Assembly (NCBI RefSeq): GCF_000003815.2
Contig: NC_049987.1
Coordinates: 4,821,341 to 4,885,340 of the forward strand
From: Branchiostoma floridae
Taxonomy: Eukaryota > Chordata > Leptocardii > Amphioxiformes > Branchiostomatidae
DNA length: 64,000 nucleotides
Direction: 5' to 3'
Each line of letters starts with the position of its first letter. The stretch's first letter is position 1. The translations under genes were made by a program, and so were the position numbers. This document shows positions 25,955 to 42,600 of the stretch, one piece after another. Under the pieces are notes generated by a model. The model worked only from the letters and a program-made list of their open reading frames with translations. It ran no database searches and was not told where the DNA came from.

Positions 25955-27836
25955 ACCAAGGACAGATATAGCAATGTAAATATTTTACAGAAAAAAAAAA
26001 CAAGCTTAAGTGAAGCAATGTTATTCAGTACCAATGACAGATATAGCAGTGTGATTATGTTTTACAAAAGAAACAAGTAAAGTGATGTTCTTCAGCACCA
26101 AGGACAGATACAGCAGTGGGAATGTTTTACTTCAGAAACAAGTGAAGTGATGCTAGTCAGCACCAAGGACAGATACAGCAGTGTGAATGTTTTACATAAG
26201 AAACAAGTGAGTGATATTCTTCAGTACCAAGGACAGATACAGCAGTGTGAATGTTTTACATAAGAAACAAGTGAAGTGATGTCCGTCAGCACCAAGGACA
26301 GATACAGCAGTGGGAATGTTTTACATAAGGAACAAGTGAAGTGATATTCTTCAGCACCAAGGACAGATACAGCAGTGTGAATGTTTTACATAAGGAACAA
26401 GCGAAGTGATGTTCTTTAGCACCAAGGACAGATACAGAAGTGGGAATGTTTTAGATAAGAAACAAGTAAAGTGATGTTCTTAAGCACCAAGGACAGATAC
26501 AGCATTGTGAGTGTTTTACATAAGAAACAAGTGAAGTGATGGTGTTCAGCACCAAGGACGGATACAGCAGTGTGAATGTTTTACATAAGAAACAAATGAA
26601 GTGATGTTCAGTGCCAAGGACAGATACAGCAGTGTTAATGTTTTACATAAGAAGCAAGTGAAGTGATTTTCTTCAGCACCAAGGACAGATACAGCAGTGT
26701 TAATGTTTTACATAAGAAGCAAGTGAAGTGATGTTATTCAGCACAAAGGACAGATACAGCAGTATGAATGTTTTACATAAGAAACAAGTGAAATGATGCT
26801 AGTCAGCACAAAGGACAGATACAGCAGTGGGAATGTTTTACGTAAGAAACAAGTGAAGTGATGCTAGTCAGCACAAAGGACAGATACAGCAGTGGGAATG
26901 TTTTACATAAGAAACAAGTGAAGTGATGCTAGTAAAGGACAAAGGACAGATACAGCAGTGGGAATGTTTTACATAAGAAACAAGTGAAGTGATGCTAGTC
27001 AGCACAAAAGACAGATACAGCAGTGTGGATGTTTTACGTAAGAAACAAGTGAAGTGATGCTAGTCAGCACAAAGGACAGATACAGCAGTGGGAATGTTTT
27101 ACATAAGGAACAAGTGAAGTGATGTTCACCACCAAGGACAGATACAGCAGTGAGAATGTTTTACATAAGAAACAAGTGAAGTGATGTTTTCAGCACATAG
27201 CACAGATACAGCAGTGTGAATGTTTTACATAAGAAACAAGTGAAGTGATGTTCAGCACCAAGGACAGATACAGCAGTGTGAATGTTTGACATAAGAAACA
27301 AGTGAAGTGATGTTCAGCACCAAGGACAGATGCAGCAGTGTGAATGTTTTACATAAGAAACAAGTGAAGTGATGTTCAGCACCAATAACAGATACAGCAG
27401 TGTGAATGTTTTACATAAGAAACAAGTGAAGTGATGTTCAGCACCAAGGACAGATGCAGCAGTGTGAATGTTTTACATAAGAAACAAGTGAAGTGATGTT
27501 CAGCACCAATAACAGATACAGCAGTGTGAATGTTTTACATAAGAAACAAGTGAAGTGATGTTCAGCACCAAGGACAGATGCAGCAGTGTGAATGTTTTAC
27601 ATAAGAAACGAGTGAAGTGATGTTCAGCACCAATAACAGATACAGCAGTGTGAATGTTTTACATAAGAAACAAGTGAAGTGATGTTCAGCACCAAGGACA
27701 GATGCAGCAGTGTGAATGTTTTACATAAGAAACAAGTGAAGTGATGTTCAGCACCAAGGACAGATGCAGCATTGTGAATGTTTTACATAAGAAACAAGTG
27801 AAGTGATGTTCAGCACCAAGGACAGATACAGCAGTG
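25955..27836. repeat. Minisatellite, about 30 copies of a 62-bp unit
   Basis: The unit contains the invariant blocks GGACAGATACAGCAGTG, GAATGTTTTACATAAG and AACAAGTGAAGTGATG. Early units vary between about 60 and 66 bp in the spacer before GCACCAAGG. From about 27300 onward, units with GGACAGATGCAG alternate with units carrying AATAACAGATACAG, giving a two-unit higher-order repeat of about 125 bp. It lies between NOX2 and MGST3. No frame over it is a credible gene. Confidence 0.95.
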
Positions 27837-29687
27837 TTGTGTTTTTTTTTTGTGAGCCTCATTTCCGTGTATGCGTCTGCCATGAACATAAACTTTAAAA
27901 TACCGCGCGCCGTGGAAAAGGTGCAGTAATAATAGTATAGCACAATAAAATATAGCAGAATGATAATTGTCTCGAAACACACAATGTTTTCCTCTTTCTG
28001 ATCAGTCATGTCACTGAAAAAGAAAGTCTTTTCAATATGGGGTTCATCCAACACAAAAGTCCCAGATTCTGCGTGTCATTTTGTCATAAAATGATGTTTG
28101 TTTTTCTCTCCATCTAATGTACCAAAATCATACAAGTTGAAGGAACAGAACTCACGTATCATTTTCCCCAGTTTCATATTGCTGTTACAGCTTACCTTTT
28201 CCACTTCTTCTATGTATATTTTTTTATCTTTCTTGTCCTGCTAAAAGGGTAATATCGTTATTGTAACACACTGACGAATTGCACAGAGAACGGGCGCGTG
28301 GTTGATAGGGGGTTTCGTAATTTACCGCCAAGAAGAAACACGGCACAATTAGCTGCCGCTTTGTCTCTTTATAATCCTCTTTCACGGTTCCTTTCTTACC
28401 TGTTAGTAATTCCACAAAACAAAAAGCTGCATGACCATACAAAAAGTCATTCAAAAACGGACATATAGTGTCAAGAATTTTCATTTAACTTTGGTCCGCC
28501 ACAACCGCTATGACGCAAAACTTTACTGCTAGCGTAGATATAAAAATGGCGGGAAAATGGCGGCGTACGTTCAATTGGGCCCGTTTAACCGATCCGGGCT
28601 ACCATGCAACGGTTTATCACACTTTTACACGAGCTGTAGGTCACAAACAGAAATTTAAGATTGCTGTTGAATCATGCTCGCCTTGTGCCGTGAGCACGTG
28701 TGATTATTATCTACAAATCTGGCGATGAACGTGACAGTGTGTTCGTCCCGCGACGAGCTCGCCTGCCCCGAAAAGGAACTGAAAACTTTTGGCCTTGTTG
28801 TCTTCGAATGCACCGTTATTGAAGCCTTTTTGAAAATTAGTTGAACCCATGGATGTCTGAAGTGTGCATGGATATCTCGAAAATTACTGTTGCCGCACAA
28901 GTAGATCTCCTTAAATTCATCGCCGATTTATTTGGCGGTATTATGATTAATGGCGGTATTATGATAATGGGTGTTATTTGTTTCAGGATGATTCCCTGGA
29001 AGAGACGGTCGCTAGACGAAGCAAACTGCGCGCAGCTGGGGTGTTGAAAACTTGTTGACTAACAGGTGTCGCTTAGGTATGGGGTCAACGACCGACAGAG
29101 CGCCTTCGTGATCTTATGGGTACCTACTGGCTGGCAAAATACACCTGGTGATTATGACCTTGTTTCTGGGTGAAACAGGACTATTCGAGACCCCGGTACA
29201 GGAAATATTTCAGGAAAGTTTACCCCACGCAAATTGTTTCCGCCTCGACCAGATAACATCTTCCACACCCTCTTCTTGAAGAAGAAAAACAGAGGCTCAT
29301 CATTACAATGCACTTTTTGACCCGATAAGCCCAAACATGACGTCACGACCTCGGGTCAAACCACAATATTATAGGTAGTTAAGGGTCGTGACTCAAATTT
29401 GACAATATAGCTATTACTGCTGCGATCCGCTTATCTGTTGACTTTATTTTGAGATATGTATTTCTATAGTTTATTTCAATGGTTTTTGTAGCCGCTTTTA
29501 AATACAAAATATTGTTAAAAATAGACTATTGACAGCAGAAGTTTGTACAGCTCCCCCTTTTGTGAATTTGAGCTGGTCCATTGTGTTGTAGCGTGGGTAG
29601 GCGTGGCTCTCAGCGTCCCTGTTTTCAGTTCAGCTGGTGTTTTCTGCAAAGTACGAACTCTCGTCCAACAACAGTCTGGTGATAAAA
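27837..29687. other. Upstream region of the MGST3 gene
   Basis: AT-rich at first, then a CpG-rich interval at about 28540-28770. No coding exon could be supported. The sequence just before the MGST3 ATG has no TATA box, and a TTTTCAG at about 29622-29628 could be the acceptor of a 5' UTR intron. Confidence 0.4.
28543..28563 (+). promoter_or_regulatory. Tandem YY1-like sites in a CpG-rich patch
   Basis: The 10-mer AAAATGGCGG occurs twice with one base between, matching the YY1 consensus AANATGGCG. YY1 sites often lie just downstream of TATA-less starts. The patch is 1.1 kb before the MGST3 ATG and could be its promoter with an unseen 5' UTR exon, or serve another transcript. Confidence 0.35.
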
Positions 29688-32600
29688 ATGGCGTTTCAAG
29701 TCGCACCAGAGTTCGGCTACGTGGTGTTCAGCCTGGTGGCCACCTTCGTGACCTACACGTACCTGGGCGTCAACGTGGGGAGGGCGCGCAAGAAGTACGA
29801 CGTCAAGGTACAGAAAATTATGCAACGTAACTGTGGAGTTTTGCTTGAACCTTGAACCAAGGCTTGAACCTTGATTGTGGACATCAGGAACTTATAAAGT
29901 TAGATTTTGGTCGGTCATGAGTAGAGTGCAGTGGAGTACAGCGGTTTCAGTCATGTTCTTTCAGGAGATTCCTAACCCTGAGAACAAATACAAATATAAT
30001 TTTTGAACATTGGCTTTTCAATTAGTAGGCCACAGCAAGTAAATTTTATGGATGACATCCCATTGAGACTGCAAAAATAGTGAGATAGGGAAAAAAGGGT
30101 ACAAAACAAGATGGCTTAACATTTTCAAAATAGTCACCATAAACGTATGGTACGTCATTTACATTAAAAAAAATCAAAGGGACAAAATATGATGTCATAG
30201 CCAACAAATTAATCAGGCGAAATATTAAGGAATGTGCTGATGTCATCCATAACATTTACTTGCTGTAGCAAATCCCAAAACTGAACTGAACGCCGCCGAT
30301 GCAATTGCAACGAAATAAACAAAAAAAAGTTGCTTTCGTTCATTTATGAAATCTAACTGGTCTGAAAGATTTTTAAAAAATAACTATTCGTTAACATTTT
30401 CGTTCTTTCATATTTTCTTCTTTCAAGTCTCTTTGAAAATACTTTGCCATCATTGCAGCAGCTAGTATGTGACTTATATTATACTATGGCCCATATCGCA
30501 AACTCAAAACCACTGTGTCTGTCTTCTCCTTACTGAAAATCTTGTTGTTGTTTTTGTTGTTGTTGTTGTCCTCGTTTAACGTCTATTATTTCGCTAGACG
30601 TGGCCTCTTGGTGCTGAGTAACACATGGTTTGCTTTTGAGTCAATAGTCTCTCTTGGTATTTAACTCTTGGTTCCTTGTGCTTGAGAGTTGCTGGATGAG
30701 TAATAAATCTACTAGTATTTAAGTTAAAAGCATTTACAGTATTGATTGTACATTCAGCTTGCACCAATGATGTCTTTAATACATGTATAACATGTACCCT
30801 ACAGTACCCGACTATGTACAGTGACAAGGACCAAGTTTTCAACTGCTACCAGCGGGCTCACCAAAACATGTAAGTCTCCTTTTTCTCATATATTGAGTCT
30901 GCAGTTCATCCTTTCAGTCATTATAAGTTGCTGGCATTCACAGAATTTGCTGTAAATGAAACAGGGATCTATTATTAAAAGCTCATAAAACTAAAACTTT
31001 AAAAGATATTAAGTAATGCATGTAGAGTAGAGAAGTGAAGTTGGATTATATTAGAGTACTGCTAGTAGACAATGTATATTATGATTAAATTAAATTAAAT
31101 TAAAATTCCATACAATTTTCGTGCCGCATGGCCTTGCCATGCTAAAAATAAAGTAAAAGCACATCAGTATTGCCGAAACTGAGTCTATAATGATTTTACA
31201 TTAGAGTCTAATCATACAATGTCTTTCTATTGTCATATCAAGGCTGGAGCAGCTGCCCCTGTTCCTGGTGTTCCTACTGGTGGCTGGTGTCCAGTTTCCG
31301 GTCAGTAGTTTTCACTTCAACATGTGTTCATGTCTCTACTAGGTTATGCTTCTATGATGACCGTTTCAACTCTATTACTATTAGCCAGGAGAATTAACCT
31401 ATGGATGAGATTAGTGCCAACAAGAGCTCAGGATTCTTTTTCATTATGAGAATCAGTCCAAAGGGAGTTCACGATTCACTGTCATCAGGCTTAAAATAGC
31501 TAAAGTGGTCTACGGCTGGGTTTACACATAAAGTTTTTGGAGTTGACGTGGAATACACTCCACTGTAGCTAAATGCAGTTCAACTCAGCGCACTCACTCA
31601 CTCACTCACTCACTCACTCACTCACTCACTCACTCACTCACTCACTCACTCACTCACTCACTCACTCACTCACACTATCCGGGTTAACGTCTGTTGTTCC
31701 CCATCCCTTGGGGGTTAGACGTCAGTAAACAGAATTCAGAGTCTGTAAACAGAAATTTAGGGCACTCAAGGACTCTTCTCTGCTAGGTCTTGAGTATCTT
31801 TGAAACCATGCTCAAATTGTAGTCTTATTATTGTTTTAGTCTACTTTTGTAGTCTACATGGCAAGCATTTCAGTTATATGTCAACACAAAGTCAACTTTT
31901 ACCTGTTATCAATTCCAGGTCCCCTCTGCCATTGCTGGTTTGGTGTGGAACGCTGGCCGCATTGTCTATGCCCATGGATACTACACTGGAGGTTTGTATC
32001 TCATATCATACAATCATGTATATCACTGATCATCATCTTATCTATCCCTCAGTCTACCTTTTGGATCATCCCGGGGGGCAACACAGATAGAAGATCTAAC
32101 AACCAGTTTTCTCCACTCTTCTTTGTTTTTCTTTTTTAGTGCTCACGGGTGCCTAGGCATTTGCACGAACAAATGAGATTCATACGAACATTATGTGATA
32201 CGCAGAAATCACTATGTGACACCCACAGCCTTATGTGATGTGTGTGTCACATACCGGTAGTGATTCGTGCGAATGACATAAGGTTTGAATTGTACGTTTT
32301 CACATAGTGATTCGTGTGATTTTCATAAGGGTCGTGAATTTTCACAGTGATTTACTGTAATGTTCGTACGAATCTCATAGTCATAGGGTTTGTGCAAATG
32401 CTTACTAGGCACCCCTGTGCTACGCCTGCCCAATCAAGTGTCTATTTTGTGATTTATGATGATTGTAATTATAAGGCCCTTGGATGATTTTGAGTACAAA
32501 TACATTTTTCAATATAATAAAATTACAGATCCTGCCAAAAGGATCCGGGGTGAATTTGATTTCTTGGCTCTGTTTGCCCTGATGGGCATGTCTGTGTATG

Positions 32601-34415
32601 GAGCGGTCCGTCAGCTCAACTGGGTGTGAACAGATGAAGCATCAAGATCTGCATGCGACATTCTCTGGAAAATGACCTTTGGAAACTAATCATTCTCTCA
32701 ATCAATCAAAGTCAATCAAAGTGTGCACCCCAATGAGAATATGCACCCCTAAGTTCAAATTTATACAAATTTGACTGGGACTGAAAATATAAAATGGGAA
32801 AATTTGAATAAAGTATGCACCCTTCTCCACCAATCTTGGACTCATATTTTCTCTTTTCATGAAAATATGGTTAAAAAATCAAGGACATCTACATGTATGC
32901 AATGTCCTTGTTTGAATTTCTATGAAAAAAAGTTTGTAGTCACTGACATTGTTCCTACAAACTTGTGAATTGCAATTGCCTACTTCAAGTTACAAAATCG
33001 CTTGGAATAGAAGAATTGCAGTACACGAACTTGGTTTATTTGAGGCCCTTTATTTTTTTTCCCACTTACTAGTTCAACAATGCCCTGAAATTCAGGCGCA
33101 CAAATCAATGTGCATATTCCTACGTTGGCAACAACTTACAGCACCCTTGAGTTTTGAAATGTTCAAAAGGTGTGTACTAATAATTTGACAAAATACCACT
33201 ATTGAACCTGCCAACTACTTACTTGTTTGTTTTCCTTTTTGAGATAGGGACCATTGTTTTGTTTTTTTCTGTCACTCAAGTGTCTATTTTGTGATTGATT
33301 GTGATTTTCATAACACCTTGGGTATGAAATCAATACATTTTTTTCAATATGATATGATTACAGATCCCGCCAAAAGGAATAAGGGTGCATTTTCTTACTT
33401 GGGCTTTTTTGCCCTGTTGGGCATGTCCATCTATGGAGCCGTGCGCCAGCTCAACTGGGTGTGAACAGAGGAAGCCTCCGACCTTCATTAGAGTGCCCTT
33501 CTGTAGAAAGTGGCCTATGGAAACTTTAGTATAATCTTAGTGCCAGTAGTAGCAAGTACATGCAGTAATAGAACATTATGTTCACTTATCGGATACCAAT
33601 GATCCTGATCATGAATAATTTGTGAGACCGTATGTTGATTGTGTAAGTTACCATGAATACTGGTGTCACATGTAATACTAATAATGGACTTTGTGGATGA
33701 AATAGCTACCTACTCACACTGATCCTACAGTGCTATCATGGTATCTACTAGTCTGAGTTTAAGGGTTATCTCACTTGACTATGGTACATTGGTGGCAATG
33801 CAGTGTTCTACATTGACTTAGTGTTACAAATATTATGACTTTGTAAATGGAATTAATATCATGCAAAATGTACAAGTATGATTAGAAAGATTTTTAAAAA
33901 ACACACATACACAAAGCATCAAAGTAATTTTTTTTTATAGTTGCAATTCATTTAAGCACTCTGTATCAAATTTCTTGGCCGCAGCAATGACAAGTTAATG
34001 TACCACATCTTCAGTGAGATGCCCCTTCTTCATCAGTTTTCTGGGTAGACCTAATTTTGTAGAACTAATAGAAATCCATTAAAAACACAAATTTAAACAG
34101 ATTGAAGCTTACATTGTTGTCAGGGTATTTAATCTCTAACCAGATCCACGGTGCATAATGACCTGTATAGTATCAAACCTCCGGTGTCCGTCTGACTCCC
34201 TTAGCTGCTACACTCCTTGGCCAGCTTTGATACTATCTTATGGCACCGTAGGATCTGCTTGGAGATTAAGTGTATTGTATTAGATGAGTTACATACAGTT
34301 TTCAATGATTACAGATCCTGAGAAAAGGATTTGGGGTGGATTTTCTCACATGGGTCACTTTGCACTGATTCTCATCGCCATCTATTGTGCTGTCCGTCAG
34401 CTCAACTGGGTGTGA
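29688..34415 (+). CDS. MGST3: MGST3-type microsomal glutathione S-transferase with three alternative last exons
   Basis: A four-helix MAPEG-family membrane enzyme; family members conjugate glutathione to lipid electrophiles and reduce lipid hydroperoxides in the endoplasmic reticulum. Common exons are 29688-29807, 30805-30869, 31243-31300 and 31919-31991; each terminal exon is 101 bp (32529-32629, 33364-33464 or 34315-34415). Phases 0, 2, 0 and 1 join to 138 residues; human MGST3 has 152 and a longer tail. Family marks include RARKKYDV at 32-39 after helix 1, FNCYQRAHQN at 52-61 (human FNCIQRAHQN) and GRIVYAHGYYTG at 94-105. The last exon supplies DP.KR, helix 4 and the end VRQLNWV. The ATG lies in AAAATGG with no upstream in-frame alternative close by. 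Intron 1 and intron 4 carry small inverted-repeat elements. The enzyme class is firm; use of each terminal exon is inferred from sequence alone. Confidence 0.93.
30032..30266. mobile_element. Inverted-repeat element in MGST3 intron 1
   Basis: The ends ACAGCAAGTAAATTTTATGG and the complement of ACAGCAAGTAAATGTTATGG (one mismatch) both continue with ATGACATC. The 235-bp element has no coding capacity. Confidence 0.75.
31591..31672. repeat. (CTCA)n microsatellite
   Basis: About 20 perfect CTCA units in MGST3 intron 3. Confidence 0.98.
32144..32417. mobile_element. Inverted-repeat element in MGST3 intron 4
   Basis: The left end CACGGGTGCCTAGGCATTTG pairs with the complemented right end CAGGGGTGCCTAGTAAGCATTTG. 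The interior repeats CATAGTGATTCGTG and TATGTGA words in both orientations. TGCT flanks both sides and may be a short target duplication. It sits about 110 bp before the first alternative terminal exon. Confidence 0.7.
32529..32629 (+). CDS. MGST3: MGST3 terminal exon A
   Basis: First of three tandem last exons, preceded by AATTACAG. It completes a split Asp codon, then encodes PAKRIRGEFDF, a helix (LALFALMGMSVYGAV) and the end RQLNWV before TGA. An AATAAA at 32807-32812, about 180 bp past the stop, could end a short transcript before exon B. Confidence 0.9.
32807..32812 (+). terminator. Candidate polyadenylation signal after MGST3 exon A
   Basis: AATAAA 178 bp downstream of the exon A stop codon and 550 bp before exon B, placed to allow polyadenylation of an A-ending transcript. 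Confidence 0.4.
33364..33464 (+). CDS. MGST3: MGST3 terminal exon B
   Basis: Second terminal exon, preceded by GATTACAG. It has the same length (101 bp) and phase as exon A, and 24 of 33 residues are identical. It reads PAKRNKGAFSYLGFF, then a helix and RQLNWV, then TGA. The duplicated unit includes intron sequence: the 20-mer CAAGTGTCTATTTTGTGATT lies 94 bp before exon A and 87 bp before exon B. The frame is intact. Confidence 0.85.
34129..34269. mobile_element. Small inverted-repeat element just before MGST3 exon C
   Basis: TTAATCTCTAACCAGATCC and the complemented right end TTAATCTCCAAGCAGATCC form the arms, continuing into ACGGTGC.ATAA. Relatives are at 58768-58965 and 60133-60304. Confidence 0.7.
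34315..34415 (+). CDS. MGST3: MGST3 terminal exon C
   Basis: Third terminal exon, preceded by GATTACAG, again 101 bp in the same phase. It is the most diverged: 19 of 33 residues match exon A and 21 match exon B. The helix reads GHFALILIAIYCAV, introducing a cysteine and removing the Gly-Met-Ser of the others. The C-terminal RQLNWV is unchanged. Intact frame and splice site argue against decay. Confidence 0.82.
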
Positions 34416-34952
34416 ACTTACTACGGAAGTATCCAGGCATTCATGGTTACACAGGGTTTTCTATGGTTGGGGGCTGTGTGTTACCTATATAAAATTTCAT
34501 TGACATCATACAGATTCATAATGATTACAATTTGCTACCTGTGTTACCTATTAATCTGTGTAATCACCTGAAAAGCTGGCCATAGCCTACTAGTAAGTGT
34601 GATTTTAACCCTGGTGAAATAGATAAATGACATGAAATTTGAATCTCCAACGACCATGTTGGCATGTAATTGGATCAAGCAGTAGTGTCTTCATACAGTG
34701 TTTTACAGACATACAGTGTACACTGTGATCCAACATGGTGCAGATAACGTCAAAGCCTGTATATACACCTAATGCCAATCCTAATACATGTACTTGTAAA
34801 GCCAGGCAGGGCTAGCCTGGGTACCATCCTTCTTAGTAACCGCTGGCTCAATCATTTTGCTCGCATGATTAGCAAGTGAAAAGTTTGAGCCATTGGTTGG
34901 TGCTGAGGAAGGTAACACTTAGACCTAGGCAGAGACACTAATTATTCAAGAT

Positions 34953-35305
34953 CAGGGCTCTAGCCAGCTCGACATTTTTTTTCCGTCAGCCAATTCCCAT
35001 TGTCGCGAAAACACTATTCCAGGAGTTAGAGAGACTGAACTGAGACCTTGAAAAAGGGTTTTAATGAGATTATCGTATACGAAAGGGCACCGACACACAT
35101 TGTCAACAATCATAACAATAGCAAAACAAACAGTGTGTGGCTTTTACGGCCGTGGACGGCATCCCCAAGCAGCCTGTAGCTTCCACCAAGGAGCTTTTAT
35201 CAGATTTTTGTCCGTCAAAGTTGACGGATTGGTTTTAAAATTTTTCCGTCACACGCAGCAAATTTCCGTCAATTGATGGAAAAACGGACGCTGGCTAGAG
35301 CCCTG
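34953..35305. mobile_element. Non-autonomous hAT-like element with 8-bp target duplication
   Basis: Perfect 16-bp terminal inverted repeats CAGGGCTCTAGCCAGC are flanked by the perfect 8-bp direct repeat TTCAAGAT (34945-34952 and 35306-35313). The interior has several TCCGTCA/TGACGGA words. The ends resemble those of the element at 11360-11730, so the two may be related families. Confidence 0.92.
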
Positions 35306-35313
35306 TTCAAGAT

Positions 35314-36634
35314 AAACTTTTCCTCCTGATGAAAGTCTGGAGACTAATGAAGGAAACTGTAAGCAATAAGACCATTTTGGGGAATCCTTGTTATGCCGGT
35401 AATAATGAAGAAGAGTTAGGTAATGCGGGGGCAAGCCCAAAATTCTATAATTACTAACTAAAGATAAATGTCCTTTAGAAGCTTAGTCTTAATAGCAGTA
35501 TATAACTGAATGTACAAGTAATTTTACTGGATACCATTTATATATTATACTCACACTATAATTCTTGTAATTGCGTAGTTTACTAAATGTGTGTAATTGC
35601 GTAGTTTACTAAATGTGTAAACTACATTCAGTACCAGGTATTACAACTGAACCCACAGCTGACATATCTGTATATCATTTTGTGTTAACGAAGGCATTTG
35701 GTATTGGTGTATAAATTACTGAAAATATATATGGGTAGTAATAAAGAAGGATTGTGAAAAAAAGGGTGTTTTTCTTCAATGAAAAATATGTCTTTTGCTT
35801 AAAAGTCATAACATTATATCTTAACATTAAAATGTCACTCAATGCAAATAGTAATGTGTTGGACATTTAATACATTGCCCCTCTATACATACGTCTTGAT
35901 CAGGAGTTCAATTGAACAGAATGACACAACAAAAGGCAGTTTTTTAATCAACCAAATTGTTTATTTGTTTGCTTAATATAATATACATGTCGTAATCATC
36001 AAGTAAATCATATTCTGATAGTCCAATAATCTAGAGATTATATTTTACTGATACTACATGTAAAAATGACAAAAATGGTTCTATATATGGTAAAACAAGA
36101 TGAATTTGTTAAAACATTTCAAATTTACATTTACTAACATTTTACATAAAATAGACAAATTAACCTTAACAACAAAGCTAACTTACCTTTTGTTTCATAA
36201 GATTTCATCACACTTGATTTCTCTGACTTACAAAATTTAATGTACATTTTGCACCTCACCCTCATATTCACTGTTAAAACAATAAAATATTATTGGCCGC
36301 ATAAAATTACTAAGATTTAGGGCTACATTTTATGTTGGGTAACATTGAGACAAATTTGAACCATAGGAGGAATTTGTAAACAGGAATGTCATCTCATTTT
36401 TAATCACAATAAAAACATTAGTAAATATCATTCCTCTTGGTTGAAAACATCTTGTACATGTATATAGACCACATAAATTTTAAAATTTACATCTTACACC
36501 GAGTAGATACTCGAATTGCTAATTTAAGTACATTATAAAATCCACTTTCGAGTATCCAAAAAAGTATGGCCTCCCCGGAGCTCACTGAGCGCAAAATTTA
36601 CTGTGTACTAAGTGAAGATGTCTGTGTAGCAGGG
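35314..36634. other. Space between the convergent MGST3 and ADA genes
   Basis: AT-rich, no coding exon. On the minus strand an AATAAA (TTTATT at about 35960) lies 675 bp past the ADA stop and could end its 3' UTR; on the plus strand AATAAA at 35740-35745 could serve the longest MGST3 transcript. A 20-bp direct repeat (GTGTAATTGCGTAGTTTACT region) is at 35571-35612. Confidence 0.4.
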
Positions 36635-39600
36635 TCATTGCAGACTCTGGATATGTTTGACAAGTCTGTCTTTGTCAGCCTCTGGTAGGAAACATGCTTG
36701 AGCTGCATTCAGGTTCTGCAAAGACATCAAAATTTCCATGTACAGTCTATTTTACCCATGCAATGAAATTCTGTAACTTACACCAAGAGAAATCCTGGAT
36801 GGAATGTGTTAGGAGGAACATCAAGGTGTGCAGTCTAACTAAAGGGTGAACCCGCTGGACAGAACCTTGGAAGCATGGTGTGAAGACTAGCCAACTGCTG
36901 CCTACCCCTGTGTCAGGGATCCCAGCACTGTTAAATGTTATGATATCTCTTTAAACTGATCTAATACTGTTGGATAATACTTCTACTAAATGTAATATCT
37001 CTTTAAGCTGATCTAATACTGTACTGGATACTACTTCTACTAGATGTAATATCTCTTTAAACTGATCTAATACTGTACTGGATACTAATTCTACTAGATG
37101 TATTATCTCTTTAAACTGATCTAATACTGTACTGGATACTACTTCTACTAGATGTAATATCTCTTTAAACTGATCTAATACTGTACTGGATACTACTTCT
37201 ACTAGATGTATTATCTCTTTAAACTGATCTAATACTGTTGGATACTACTTCTACTAGATGTATTATCTCTTTAAACTGATCTAATACAACTGTACTGGAT
37301 AATACTTCTACTAAATGTAATATCTCTTTAAGCTGATCTAATACTGTACTGTATACTTCTTCTACTAGATGTAATATCTATTTAAACTGATCTAAACAAA
37401 TCAACTAAACATTGTGTACCAATGCTAAGTTTGATAAATATAGAAAAATCCTACCACAACCAATGGATTTATGTGATGCGGATTGCGACCATATGTATCA
37501 GGATTTATAAATCGGGAGCAATCATTGTACATGCATGGATAAAAGAAAATTGCAAAACGAGAACAAAGATTTGCTACTTACCAGGGTAGAAATCAAGGCA
37601 TCGTCAAAGCCCCAATTCTCTTTCACAAAGTCCCGTTCTCGAGCGAGGGATGTGAGGAAGACCCTGGGATCATCAGAACTGAGGGAAAAGTTGGCTCCAT
37701 CTTTGGCAAACCTGCAACAAAAGTGGAGTAACTGTAGGTTCGTTTGGAAAAGCAATCTTACCAGCACTGAAGCAGACCATAGAGCTAGATATTTCTAAAA
37801 TAACAGGCTCTTAAGAGTGCTATTCAATTATTGCAGGTGCGTAGCACCGTCTTTGAATCGACAGAAGCGGTTCGTTCAACCGGGATACATGGATGGAGGA
37901 TGGATGCATGGATCGGTCAATTTAACCAAACCCTTCTAATAGCCCTTCTATATGCCTGATTGCATAATTGAATCAGCGTAGCCGACTGGTCTAAGGCACT
38001 GGGTGTAAATAGCAATTTGCTTCTGCAGCCGTGAATCATGGGTTTGAACCCCACTTGTTTTTTTTTCTTTGTTAGACAAATCTCATGTTAAGTTTTTTTT
38101 AATAGATGACAGACCAATTCAGTAATTCGATGTTTAAAAACTCTTTATTCATGTGATTTTGTTAAACATCCAGGCTTTCTCCAAAATACGCATCGGCCAG
38201 CTTTTTTTTCAGAAGCTTTCTTGTTTATGATGTTCTTGACTTATTGCTGACCACAAATTTGTGGAAACACACTCAGATAGACACACATTCACAGATACAC
38301 CTTAACTAATACCTTCTTTTTTCATGGAGGTATATGTAACAAGAGATTGAAAGATGGTACAATGCAAGTGGTAACAGTCTACTTGCCTGTATACATGTAT
38401 GTATATTTAGTGCCTGATTAGAATGTACACAACTATTAGAAATACCTCTTGGCTGGATGTTGTGAGAATTCTGTCTGCACAGCCCCTGTCATGTAGCTAG
38501 ACACTGGACACACCTGTTTAATACATACATGTATGCGATCACTCAGAAAAAATCTACATCAACATAAATGATCAGAAAAATGAATGATTGTGTTCTAAAA
38601 AATTTTAAGATATAGTGTGAATACACATATGTGACACTTTATGAAATGATTTTCAAGAAAAACTTTGTGAAAGCAGCAATTTTCTCTGACCGGTTTAAGG
38701 GTCTTACATTAAATATGATCTACAATCCACAAAACGATTATTATCTATTACTTAATTATATCATTAGGCAATGAGAAAATGATTGTTGTTAGAGGTTGAT
38801 GATCTCGTGTTTCAGTTGTTACAAAACGCAGGTAAATTATAGTGCTGAACCATTGAATTTCCTTTGGACTTTCAAACCAAAAAAGACAAATCAACAATTA
38901 CCTCGAAATGTATGCCGTCTTTCTTGAGCCGTTGATACAAGTCCTCATCATCCAAGACATGATATCCATGGCCAATACGTTCTGCGTGCATCTGTGTCAC
39001 TGCCTGGGAAATTTGCAAAAATGAAATTAAGGAAATTGCAACCACAAATCCCTATATGGGGACTGCAGGGCTATTATTGTAACTGCAAAGAGGCCTCACC
39101 ACAGCACAGGTTTTCAACAAAGCACACCCCAACAAAGCACACCCGTCCGGCTCATCACAGCCTAATATCACGCAGCGGCCATCATAGATTGAAGACGAGG
39201 TCAATGAGGCAAACAGACAAAACTTATTTTTAAAATCAGCTCCAATTTAGTTTTCCCCCAGACCACACAAATTTTCACAATATAAGATCAAATAATAAAT
39301 ATAATTATAACCAGTGTTATGCAGCAAAATATGTAGCAATTTAGACTCGTGTACTGATCCCATATTCCCTTAAGAGATGCAAAATAAAAACATAATAATG
39401 CAAATATTTGACGGATATGCAGCCATTCTCTTATTGGTCAATTTTCTAATTTCCATGCTATCATTGGTTGAACTACTAATTATGATGGACAGTCTTTTGT
39501 TTGCCTCATTGAACTCGTTTTAGATCTATCATGGTCGCCGCGTGAGAAAGGTGTATTAGTACTCTTCCCAATAAGTGTGTTGTGTTCTTTTACGTACAAC

Positions 39601-42600
39601 AGCATTTGCCGTTGTTAGGAGGAGAGTTAAGGGCTCATGAACAGTAAGGATGCATTCCTTATCCAAGTATAGTCTTAAGATAATTGTGCTAAAAATTCTG
39701 CGATGGAGTACGGTGAGTTTGAGTATAACAGATACATACACTATAGCTTCTTTAGTCAAGCTGACAGACACAGACAAGTCAAAAACAATTTTTTATTACC
39801 TCTTCAACTATTTCTGGCCCTCCGACCTCGCCTGCATGTATTGTTCGATGGACTCCCAGACTTTCTGCCTCCTGCACACAAACATACATGGAACTGATGA
39901 GGGTCCTCATAGGGGGTATGATAATATTGCTACCCTACAAAGCAACTATTGCTGAGTCCTAATTCAATTGTCATGTTGCCAATACAAGGCAGTTAAAGTT
40001 CTATTTAACAGACACTGTGTCAAACGCCTGTGATGATATTCCCTAGTCCCTATTGATATGCTAGTAATATGCCAACAATCTTGGTTAAAATGAGTAATGT
40101 TACCTAGCTTCGGTTAGTCGCCCCTTGTGCAAACATACCTTTGATACTGATACAGATTGTTATAATATTAATGACAAAATGTCTCACCTGGAAGGCCTTG
40201 ATATGAGGTAGGTTAGCATCCTCCTTGTATCCCACTGTCCCTCCTGCCAGATCCACCCCCACCACTCCATCACTGCTGTACTTACCACACAGCTCCACCA
40301 TCTCATGGGACCACTCTGGGAAAAAAGCATTTTAGAAAACAATCGTATACAATTAGTTGTGCCATAGTTGAGAGCAATGCATTACAGCACAATCATCATT
40401 TTTATTCATCATCTAATATTTGCCAAATGTGATAGTGGCAGCTATCAAGCACACTTTGCAGCAAAAGTGGCACATACTGTCTAGCACACATTGCAGCAGT
40501 AGTGATAGCTGTTCAGCAGTCACTTTGCAGCAATTGTGACAGCTGTTCAGCAAATTGTTTTGCTGTCCAGCACTTGCAGCTGCAATTGTAGTAACAGCTA
40601 TTCAGCACAGTCGTGAGCAATAGTGTTATTTGTCTAGCAGTGCACTTTGCAGCAATAGTGTCTGCTGTCTAACACACTTCCCAGCAATAGGGACAGCTAT
40701 CCAACACACACAACTGTCCAGCACTCATACAATGAAGCAGTGACATATAAAATTGATATAAATCGGAATCTGTACTATCATTTAATAAAACATACCGACC
40801 TGGATGTTCCCTGATGGCACACAGCAGACTCCTGGCCTGTATGTTGAAGTCTTTACTCCCCCGCTTCAGACCTGCATTCACAAGCTCCACAACCTCAGCT
40901 ACTGTTGGGTCATCCCCACTCTCACCTTCAACAATACAGTACAATGAGTACAACCAGCATAATTGTCATGAAGATTGGGTTCTGGTTAAGATAAAAGTAA
41001 AGGTAAAGGTAGAGGTAAAGGTTTAGGAAAAGATAGAGGTAACGGTAAAGGTTGAGGTAAAGGTAAAGGTAGAGGTAAGAGGTAGATGTAGTCTCAGGTA
41101 GAGGTAAAGGTTGAGGTAAGAGGTAGATGTAGTCTCAGGTAGAGGTAAAGGTTGAGGTAAGAGGTAGATGTAGTCTCAGGTAGAGGTAAAGGTTGAGGTA
41201 AGAGGTAGATGTAGTCTCAGGTAGAGGTAAAGGTTGAGGTAAGAGGTAGATGTAGTCTCAGGTAGAGGTAAAGGTTGAGGTAAGAGGTAGATGTAGTCTC
41301 AGGTAGAGGTAAAGGTTGAGGTAAGAGGTAGATGTAGTCTCAGGTAGAGGTAAAGGTTGAGGTAAGAGGTAGATGTAGTCTCAGGTAGAGGTAAAGGTTG
41401 AGGTAAAGGTAGAGGTAAGAGGTAGATGTAGTCTCAGGTAGAGGTAAAGGTTGAGGTATAAAGGTAGAGGTAAGAGGTAGATGTAGTCTCAGGTAGAGGT
41501 AAAGGTTGAGGTAAAGGTTGAGGTAAGAGGTAGATGTAGTCTCAGGTAGAGGTAAAGGTTGAGGTAAAGGTAAGAGGTAGATGTATTCTCAGGTAGAGGT
41601 AAAGGTTGAGGTAAAGGTTGAGGTAAGAGGTAGATGTAGTCTTAGGTAGAGGTAAAAGGTTGAGGTTGAGGTAGGTAAATGTTGAGGAAAAGGTAAAGGT
41701 AAAGGTGGCCCCATAGCCTTTTTGAGGCCATGGGGGTAGAACCCACTGTGTCTATAGGGCACAGTATTGGAAGGCTGAGACCATTGATCTCCTTCAACTG
41801 CCTTTTACCTGTCCAACAGAAGTCAAGGTATGCAGTAAGGAAAGTCGTGTTCAGTGCATTTCCCAACGGTACAAGATTGGCAACATGAGATCGAGGATTC
41901 AAACCCAGGACTCTGGCTTATGGGTCAAATACCCTGCAGTTACACCACACAACCCCATAATAGAAGAAGTTCTGTCCTTTTACATTTTTACAATATTGTT
42001 ATATAAAATAACCACCAGCCTTCTTCAATTTTAGAAGCAATGAAATAAATTAATCTTATCACTCCACTTTTCTTAAATGGCTGCTCACCTGTGTGATTAC
42101 TTGTGAGTAGATGTGGGCAGTAACGGGTTTCAAAGTACACCACTCCTTGTTGAGCCTCGTCCTCACACAACTCGTAAGCTATCCTGCGAATAGCAGCTCG
42201 GTCACCGCTAAGTATTGGAGGAAAGAATTTTCTCTTTTTATTTACATTTCAGGACAATTTCACCTTGAACAAAATAATCCATCTTTGCAAAGTCATGTAT
42301 GATGTAACGTTGTCTTATTAGTTGTCATCTGATTTATAAGAAATTCACTAAATCTGAGGGCAAAGCCATGAATATGTGTCTAATCCATTGGAAAAATTCA
42401 AGAAATAACTAAGGAATAAAATAGACATTCTAAAACTTGAATTTTGTTCTTCAATACGTTTTTCTTCAATAATTTGTGCGCAAATTGAATAGATGCATGG
42501 ATTCTGTACGAAGAATTTACTACATAGACTTTCAATTCAATTTCTTGGTCTTCGCATTCACCCACCTGTCTTTATCCATCCCAAAATGCTCTTATACATC

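Follow-up and report, generated by a model that had tools for sequence, protein, structure and literature searches.

Introduction

C-terminal tandem duplicated exon substitutions are an established class of events and make up 77 of the 236 human events in one survey (PMC9741552). Here we analyse a gene for the membrane enzyme MGST3 in a stretch of 64,000 nt from the lancelet Branchiostoma floridae (contig NC_049987.1, positions 4,821,341 to 4,885,340, forward strand), referred to as the window, with positions numbered from its first nucleotide. Like the human examples, this gene has homologous tandem exons of the same phase, each of which ends the coding sequence. In the survey, residues binding small ligands are described as more conserved between the copies, whereas in lancelet MGST3 some of the differing residues are those that putatively line the groove. 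Neither MGST nor glutathione occurs as a term in the main text of PMC9741552.

In CYP4F3A and CYP4F3B the use of alternative exons (exon 4 or exon 3) goes along with leukotriene B4 or arachidonic acid as substrate (PMC12380495). The likeness lies in an eicosanoid enzyme with alternative exons tied to the lipid substrate, but CYP4F3 is a cytochrome P450 with internal exons and two forms, whereas lancelet MGST3 is a four-helix MAPEG enzyme with last exons and three forms, for which a substrate switch is putative. In COQ-2a and COQ-2e, exons of equal length (134 nt) swap two core α-helices in a region believed to be the hydrophobic substrate tunnel, and the quinone product changes, as tested in vivo (PMC7434440). 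COQ-2 belongs to another enzyme family and has two forms that differ in internal exons, in contrast to the three forms and last exons of lancelet MGST3.

Alternative exons also diversify glutathione transferases of the cytosolic kind, whose fold is unrelated to that of MAPEG enzymes. The natural substrates of MGST3 are poorly settled. No description of a shared-exon GSTD1 gene of Anopheles was found in the accessible parts of PMC4654499 or PMC1797171. Leukotriene C4 (LTC4) synthase (LTC4S) and MGST2 share their fold with lancelet MGST3, and helix 4 of LTC4S lines the lipid groove: Leu105, Leu108, Tyr109, Ala112, Leu115 and Trp116 of this helix surround the lipid chain (PMC3232166), and Leu108, Ala112, Leu115, Trp116 and Val119 are placed around it together with helix I of the neighbouring subunit (PMC4014545). 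Trp116 acts as a lid over the lipid, yet is dispensable (PMC3931076). Contacts between the subunits of MGST2 involve helices 1, 2 and 4 and loop L, but not helix 3 (PMC7979937). Within the accessible parts of these papers no swappable helix is described for LTC4S or MGST2.

Results

The window contains a single MGST3 gene on the plus strand, in which four shared coding exons are followed by three tandem last exons of the same phase, A, B and C (Table 1). The shared exons, which end in phase 1, contribute 105 residues. Each last exon supplies another 33 followed by a stop, giving a protein of 138 amino acids with any of the three tails. All three last exons are 101 bp long including the TGA, are preceded by AG and are in phase with the donor at 31992. 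A preliminary description of the window had reported their length, shared phase, positions and own stops, and both the sequence and the in-phase joining to this donor confirmed them. It had also called the acceptors good; they are in fact poor in pyrimidines (50–55% in 20 bases). While it spoke of mutually exclusive exons, the class is that of alternative last exons and not of internal mutually exclusive ones. Its assignment as alternative helix-4 exons of MGST3 held: the Pfam domain PF01124 (MAPEG) is present in all three isoforms (E values of 1.3e-25, 3.3e-26 and 6.8e-26), and structural comparison found the four-helix fold as in LTC4S and MGST2 (PDB 2uuh, 4ntf, 6ssw and others). The four lancelet matches and most of the other named proteins among the 120 listed are MGST3 or glutathione S-transferase 3, mitochondrial(-like). 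No further MGST3 gene body and no fourth last exon were found in the window by tblastn with E values up to 10, a search that a short diverged exon could escape, since the true exon 3 reached only E 0.7–1.2.

The identities between the tails, recomputed exactly as counted before, are 24/33 (A-B), 19/33 (A-C) and 21/33 (B-C) for the protein, and 81/101, 76/101 and 76/101, respectively, for the nucleotides. Identity among the last exons is far above chance. The tails vary at 15 of the 33 positions, the C-terminal segment RQLNWV is common to all three, and the full A and B proteins are identical at 129 of 138 residues. For A and B the 81/101 in the exon compares with 37/60 and 40/64 in the flanks, and similarity extends beyond the exon by about 98 bp on the upstream side and about 58 bp on the downstream side. 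Exon C shares 76/101 with each of the others, but only 19/60 (A) and 23/60 (B) in the upstream flanks and 24/73 (A) and 27/69 (B) in the downstream flanks, which means that flank identity with C drops to 32–39%; its similarity to A and B covers the exon and the 10–24 bp preceding it. A small element with inverted ends of 19 nt is located just upstream of exon C (window 34129–34269); it may belong to a MITE-like (miniature inverted-repeat transposable element) family, since sequence resembling it occurs near 58.8 and 60.2 kb. Because of this element, the downstream flank is the fairer control for the contrast between exon and flanks.

The preliminary description had taken the open frames of the diverged exons as an argument for selection. 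In neutral simulations that introduced 20, 20 and 25 substitutions into A, B and C, respectively, frame and stop were kept in 33%, 30% and 23% of the runs. We rejected openness as proof of selection, since 23–33% of neutral simulations stay open at equal divergence. As few amino-acid changes as observed occurred in 2.3% of the simulations for A-B, 4.8% for B-C and 28% for A-C; amino-acid changes are below neutral expectation for A-B and B-C, but not for A-C. The ratio of nonsynonymous to synonymous substitution rates (dN/dS), a comparison proposed in the preliminary description, is 0.29 by NG86 and 0.27 by maximum likelihood for A-B, and is not low for A-C (0.90 and 0.57) and B-C (0.53 and 0.36); these values rest on 33 codons and are imprecise, and YN00 gave no value for two of the three pairs. 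The argument for selection on the last exons holds by another route, as such selection is indicated by the contrast between exon and flanks together with the orthologues described next, not by openness alone.

Proteins with the same tails are present in public annotation. The B. floridae protein P0001 (database label 'isoform X1') matches the shared body with tail B at each of its 138 residues, and the same body with a C tail is found in P0002 ('isoform X3'), which stems from a B. floridae hybrid, of which the taxonomy lists two. The comparison with other lancelets that had been proposed revealed the A and C tail types in B. lanceolatum (30/33 in P0003 and 28/33 in P0004, the latter labelled 'isoform X2'); type B was not seen as a separate row for this species among the matches listed. 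The P0003 body differs from the window at 13 of 105 sites and from the P0004 body at 11 of 105, and P0003 is probably the product of a second MGST3 gene copy in B. lanceolatum. In a tree of the tails (33 columns and 19 rows, comprising 17 of the 56 alignment rows and the window A and C tails) both types form supported groups, with 95/88 for the two rows of type A and 100/99 for the three of type C. The 56 rows of the protein alignment were hand-picked for spread from the 120 listed of 466 matches in all. Since the window A and C tails group with their B. lanceolatum counterparts, types A and C appear to be older than the split of B. floridae and B. lanceolatum; the tandem exon copies have been preserved over evolutionary time, with both types intact in the second species. 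At positions 112, 114, 120 and 124 each type has its own residue, constant within A (2 rows) and C (3 rows), while site 117 is His or Asn in the type C rows and site 121 is Val in P0004. B is the form nearest to the MGST3s of other animals, and A and C look more specialised. A search with residues 99–138 of the C-tailed protein, at the sensitivity of exact 5-residue words, found no C-like helix outside lancelets and matched only P0002 and P0004.

The preliminary description had known of no report of a switchable C-terminal helix in MGST3. No paper on MGST3, MAPEG or microsomal glutathione S-transferase in amphioxus or Branchiostoma was found in the open-licence papers searched, nor any published discussion of the last-exon swap, but the swap itself is already in public annotation, where the proteins with B and C tails are labelled as isoforms.

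The match of MGST3 tail residues to the LTC4S groove hinges on a register of one residue. Arg110 is invariant in 56 of 56 aligned proteins and is the same in all three tails. The structural alignment ends at offset 5, as all 25 LTC4S and MGST2 rows listed end with the pair 138-133 or 137-132. The two modelled proteins (with tails B and C) have identical bodies, hence a rise in identity from B to C should stem from the tail. Among the 19 of 25 rows tabulated for this test, all 19 are compatible with Arg110 as the counterpart of Arg104 and offset 5 in the helix, 16 are compatible with offset 5 over the full tail, and offset 6 agrees with none of them. We therefore adopted the register that pairs Arg110 with Arg104 and would place helix 116–134 at offset 5. 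Offset 5 over the whole tail would bring four of the five three-way sites into the groove (p 0.004 over 33 positions, 0.0145 over 24), but was not adopted for the part before the helix, where Arg110 aligns with Arg104. As the profiles align the invariant Arg110 with Arg104, a one-residue bulge preceding helix 4 is more likely than offset 5 throughout.

At the adopted register Ala112, Leu115, Trp116 and Val119 of LTC4S correspond to positions 117, 120, 121 and 124 of MGST3. Positions 117 (F/Y/H in A/B/C), 120 (L/F/H) and 124 (M/L/I) are the three sites in predicted helix 4 at which all tails differ (p 0.004), while position 121, the counterpart of Trp116, is Phe in all three window tails. All p values for the groove are post hoc, and the conserved-face angle was taken over residues 113–131 as an ideal helix. 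Most glutathione-site residues of MGST3, the counterparts of Arg51, Asn55, Glu58, Tyr93 and Tyr97 of LTC4S, lie in shared exons. The preliminary description had taken the helices of MAPEG trimers to form the environment of both lipid and glutathione, so that a swap of helix 4 could change substrate or partner preference; the variation at LTC4S lipid-binding sites agrees with an effect on the lipid side in the favoured register, but the location of most glutathione contacts does not agree with one on the glutathione side.

Table 1. Exons of the MGST3 gene and candidate poly(A) signals in the window.
Feature	Position	Strand	Remark
MGST3 coding exon 1 (from ATG), helix 1, shared	29688..29807	+	protein identical to P0001 residues 1-40
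MGST3 exon 2, shared	30805..30869	+	
MGST3 exon 3, shared	31243..31300	+	
MGST3 exon 4, shared; donor GT starts at 31992	31919..31991	+	
Alternative last exon A, DPAKRIRGEFDFLALFALMGMSVYGAVRQLNWV + stop	32529..32629	+	similar to B. lanceolatum P0003 tail, 30/33
Alternative last exon B, DPAKRNKGAFSYLGFFALLGMSIYGAVRQLNWV + stop	33364..33464	+	identical to B. floridae 'isoform X1' P0001
Alternative last exon C, DPEKRIWGGFSHMGHFALILIAIYCAVRQLNWV + stop	34315..34415	+	31/33 to hybrid P0002; 28/33 to B. lanceolatum P0004
AATAAA, candidate poly(A) signal, 178 nt past stop A	32807..32812	+	motif scan
ATTAAA, candidate poly(A) signal, 614 nt past stop B	34078..34083	+	motif scan
AATAAA, candidate poly(A) signal, 1325 nt past stop C	35740..35745	+	motif scan

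An Rfam scan of positions 29000–37000 gave nothing above the gathering cut-off. A minisatellite is located upstream of MGST3 (26024–27837; units of about 62–65 bp, 28.5 copies, 90% matches), the intron preceding exon 4 holds a perfect (CACT)n microsatellite (31591–31673), and tandem arrays are present at 36943–37395 (54-bp unit, 8.4 copies) and 41055–41625 (41-bp unit, 13.9 copies). In the mollusc Liolophura sinensis, two MGST3 proteins (P0066, isoform X2, and P0093, isoform X1) have the C-terminal part in common and differ in the first approximately 40 residues, which likely reflects alternative first exons in the same family.

Discussion

The explanation that we favour, with somewhat more confidence than doubt, is that a single lancelet MGST3 gene carries three last exons, produced by tandem duplication and since retained, and that these exons would give the lipid groove different linings, with most glutathione contacts located in the shared exons. 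Judged from the sequences, B. floridae very probably expresses three isoforms. By analogy to LTC4S the helix-4 swap may act through the lipid groove, a step on which we consider the evidence evenly balanced. Exon 4 would be spliced to A, B or C in each transcript, and since each last exon has its own stop, every protein would have the same body joined to one of three versions of helix 4. As in LTC4 synthase, adjacent subunits would together form the groove for the lipid substrate, one giving helix 4 and the next helix 1, with glutathione held mainly by residues from the shared exons. Exon choice would then re-line the groove at positions 117, 120 and 124 and leave glutathione chemistry unchanged: because most glutathione residues come from shared exons and no tail alters Arg110, the swap should spare this chemistry and alter the lipid side. 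The resulting enzymes may differ in their preference for lipids or peroxides.

Several observations speak against this explanation. The sequence profiles, which for MGST2 included 15 of the 120 listed matches (397 in all), align Arg110 with the catalytic Arg104 and then run at offset 6, where only one of the five three-way sites falls in the groove; the swapped residues are thus on the substrate path at the structural register, but mostly not at the sequence-profile register. Single-sequence alignments are split, with two LTC4S at offset 5 and one MGST2 at offset 6. The identity-rise test omitted 2uui, 3leo and 9g1t, for which the aligned length changed between the models (identities rise), and the mouse LTC4S rows 4nta, 4ntf and 4ntb (no rise, 24 and 24), and small differences elsewhere between the two models could shift its figures. 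Regarding the isoforms, X1, X2 and X3 are database names, and tail A was seen only on a different B. lanceolatum body; it was not seen on this exact body among the matches listed, where grouping of sequences at 90% identity could hide it, given that the A and B proteins agree at 129 of 138 residues. Finally, dN/dS is not low for pairs with C, so that part of the divergence could be relaxed constraint.

A real exon swap could also tune trimer assembly, stability, membrane location or a protein partner, comparable to scaffolding by FLAP, instead of the groove. The inter-subunit contacts of MGST2, which include helix 4 (PMC7979937), are consistent with this, as are the variation at 15 of 33 tail positions, only some of which are groove positions, and the profile register, which shifts most three-way sites off the groove. 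The structural register, in contrast, lets the three helix positions at which all tails differ coincide with groove residues, and RQLNWV is unchanged across the window tails. We regard such a role as rather unlikely. It is improbable, in our estimation, that the main output is regulatory, with an own 3′ untranslated region and poly(A) site for each last exon and the helix differences as mild drift among interchangeable helices. A candidate poly(A) signal does follow each last exon, dN/dS is moderate for pairs with C, A-C amino-acid changes are no fewer than in neutral simulations, and openness alone fits drift; however, residues 112, 114, 120 and 124 separate the types while staying constant within A and C, and the A and C tails match B. 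lanceolatum at 30/33 and 28/33, against 19–24/33 among the types in the window. A single exon in use, with the other two as decaying copies or annotation artefacts, would fit the pyrimidine-poor acceptors, but is very improbable in view of the public proteins with B and C tails, the intact A and C tails in a second species and an exon identity far above that of the flanks.

If three kept exons do re-line the groove, we tentatively suggest, as a possibility below an even chance, a MAPEG enzyme whose lipid groove can be switched genetically, with three helix-4 cassettes, at least two of which would predate the split of B. floridae and B. lanceolatum, and a fixed glutathione site. With each groove assembled from two neighbouring subunits, helix 4 coming from one and helix 1 from the other, a trimer of mixed isoforms would hold different grooves in one molecule. 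In this gene evolution has made three versions of the helix that lines the lipid groove of LTC4 synthase while the rest of the protein is constant, so that the contribution of helix 4 to the choice of substrate can be tested directly. If the groove switch is real, an enzyme of the eicosanoid/glutathione family from an invertebrate chordate would join the enzymes whose splicing seems to choose the substrate.

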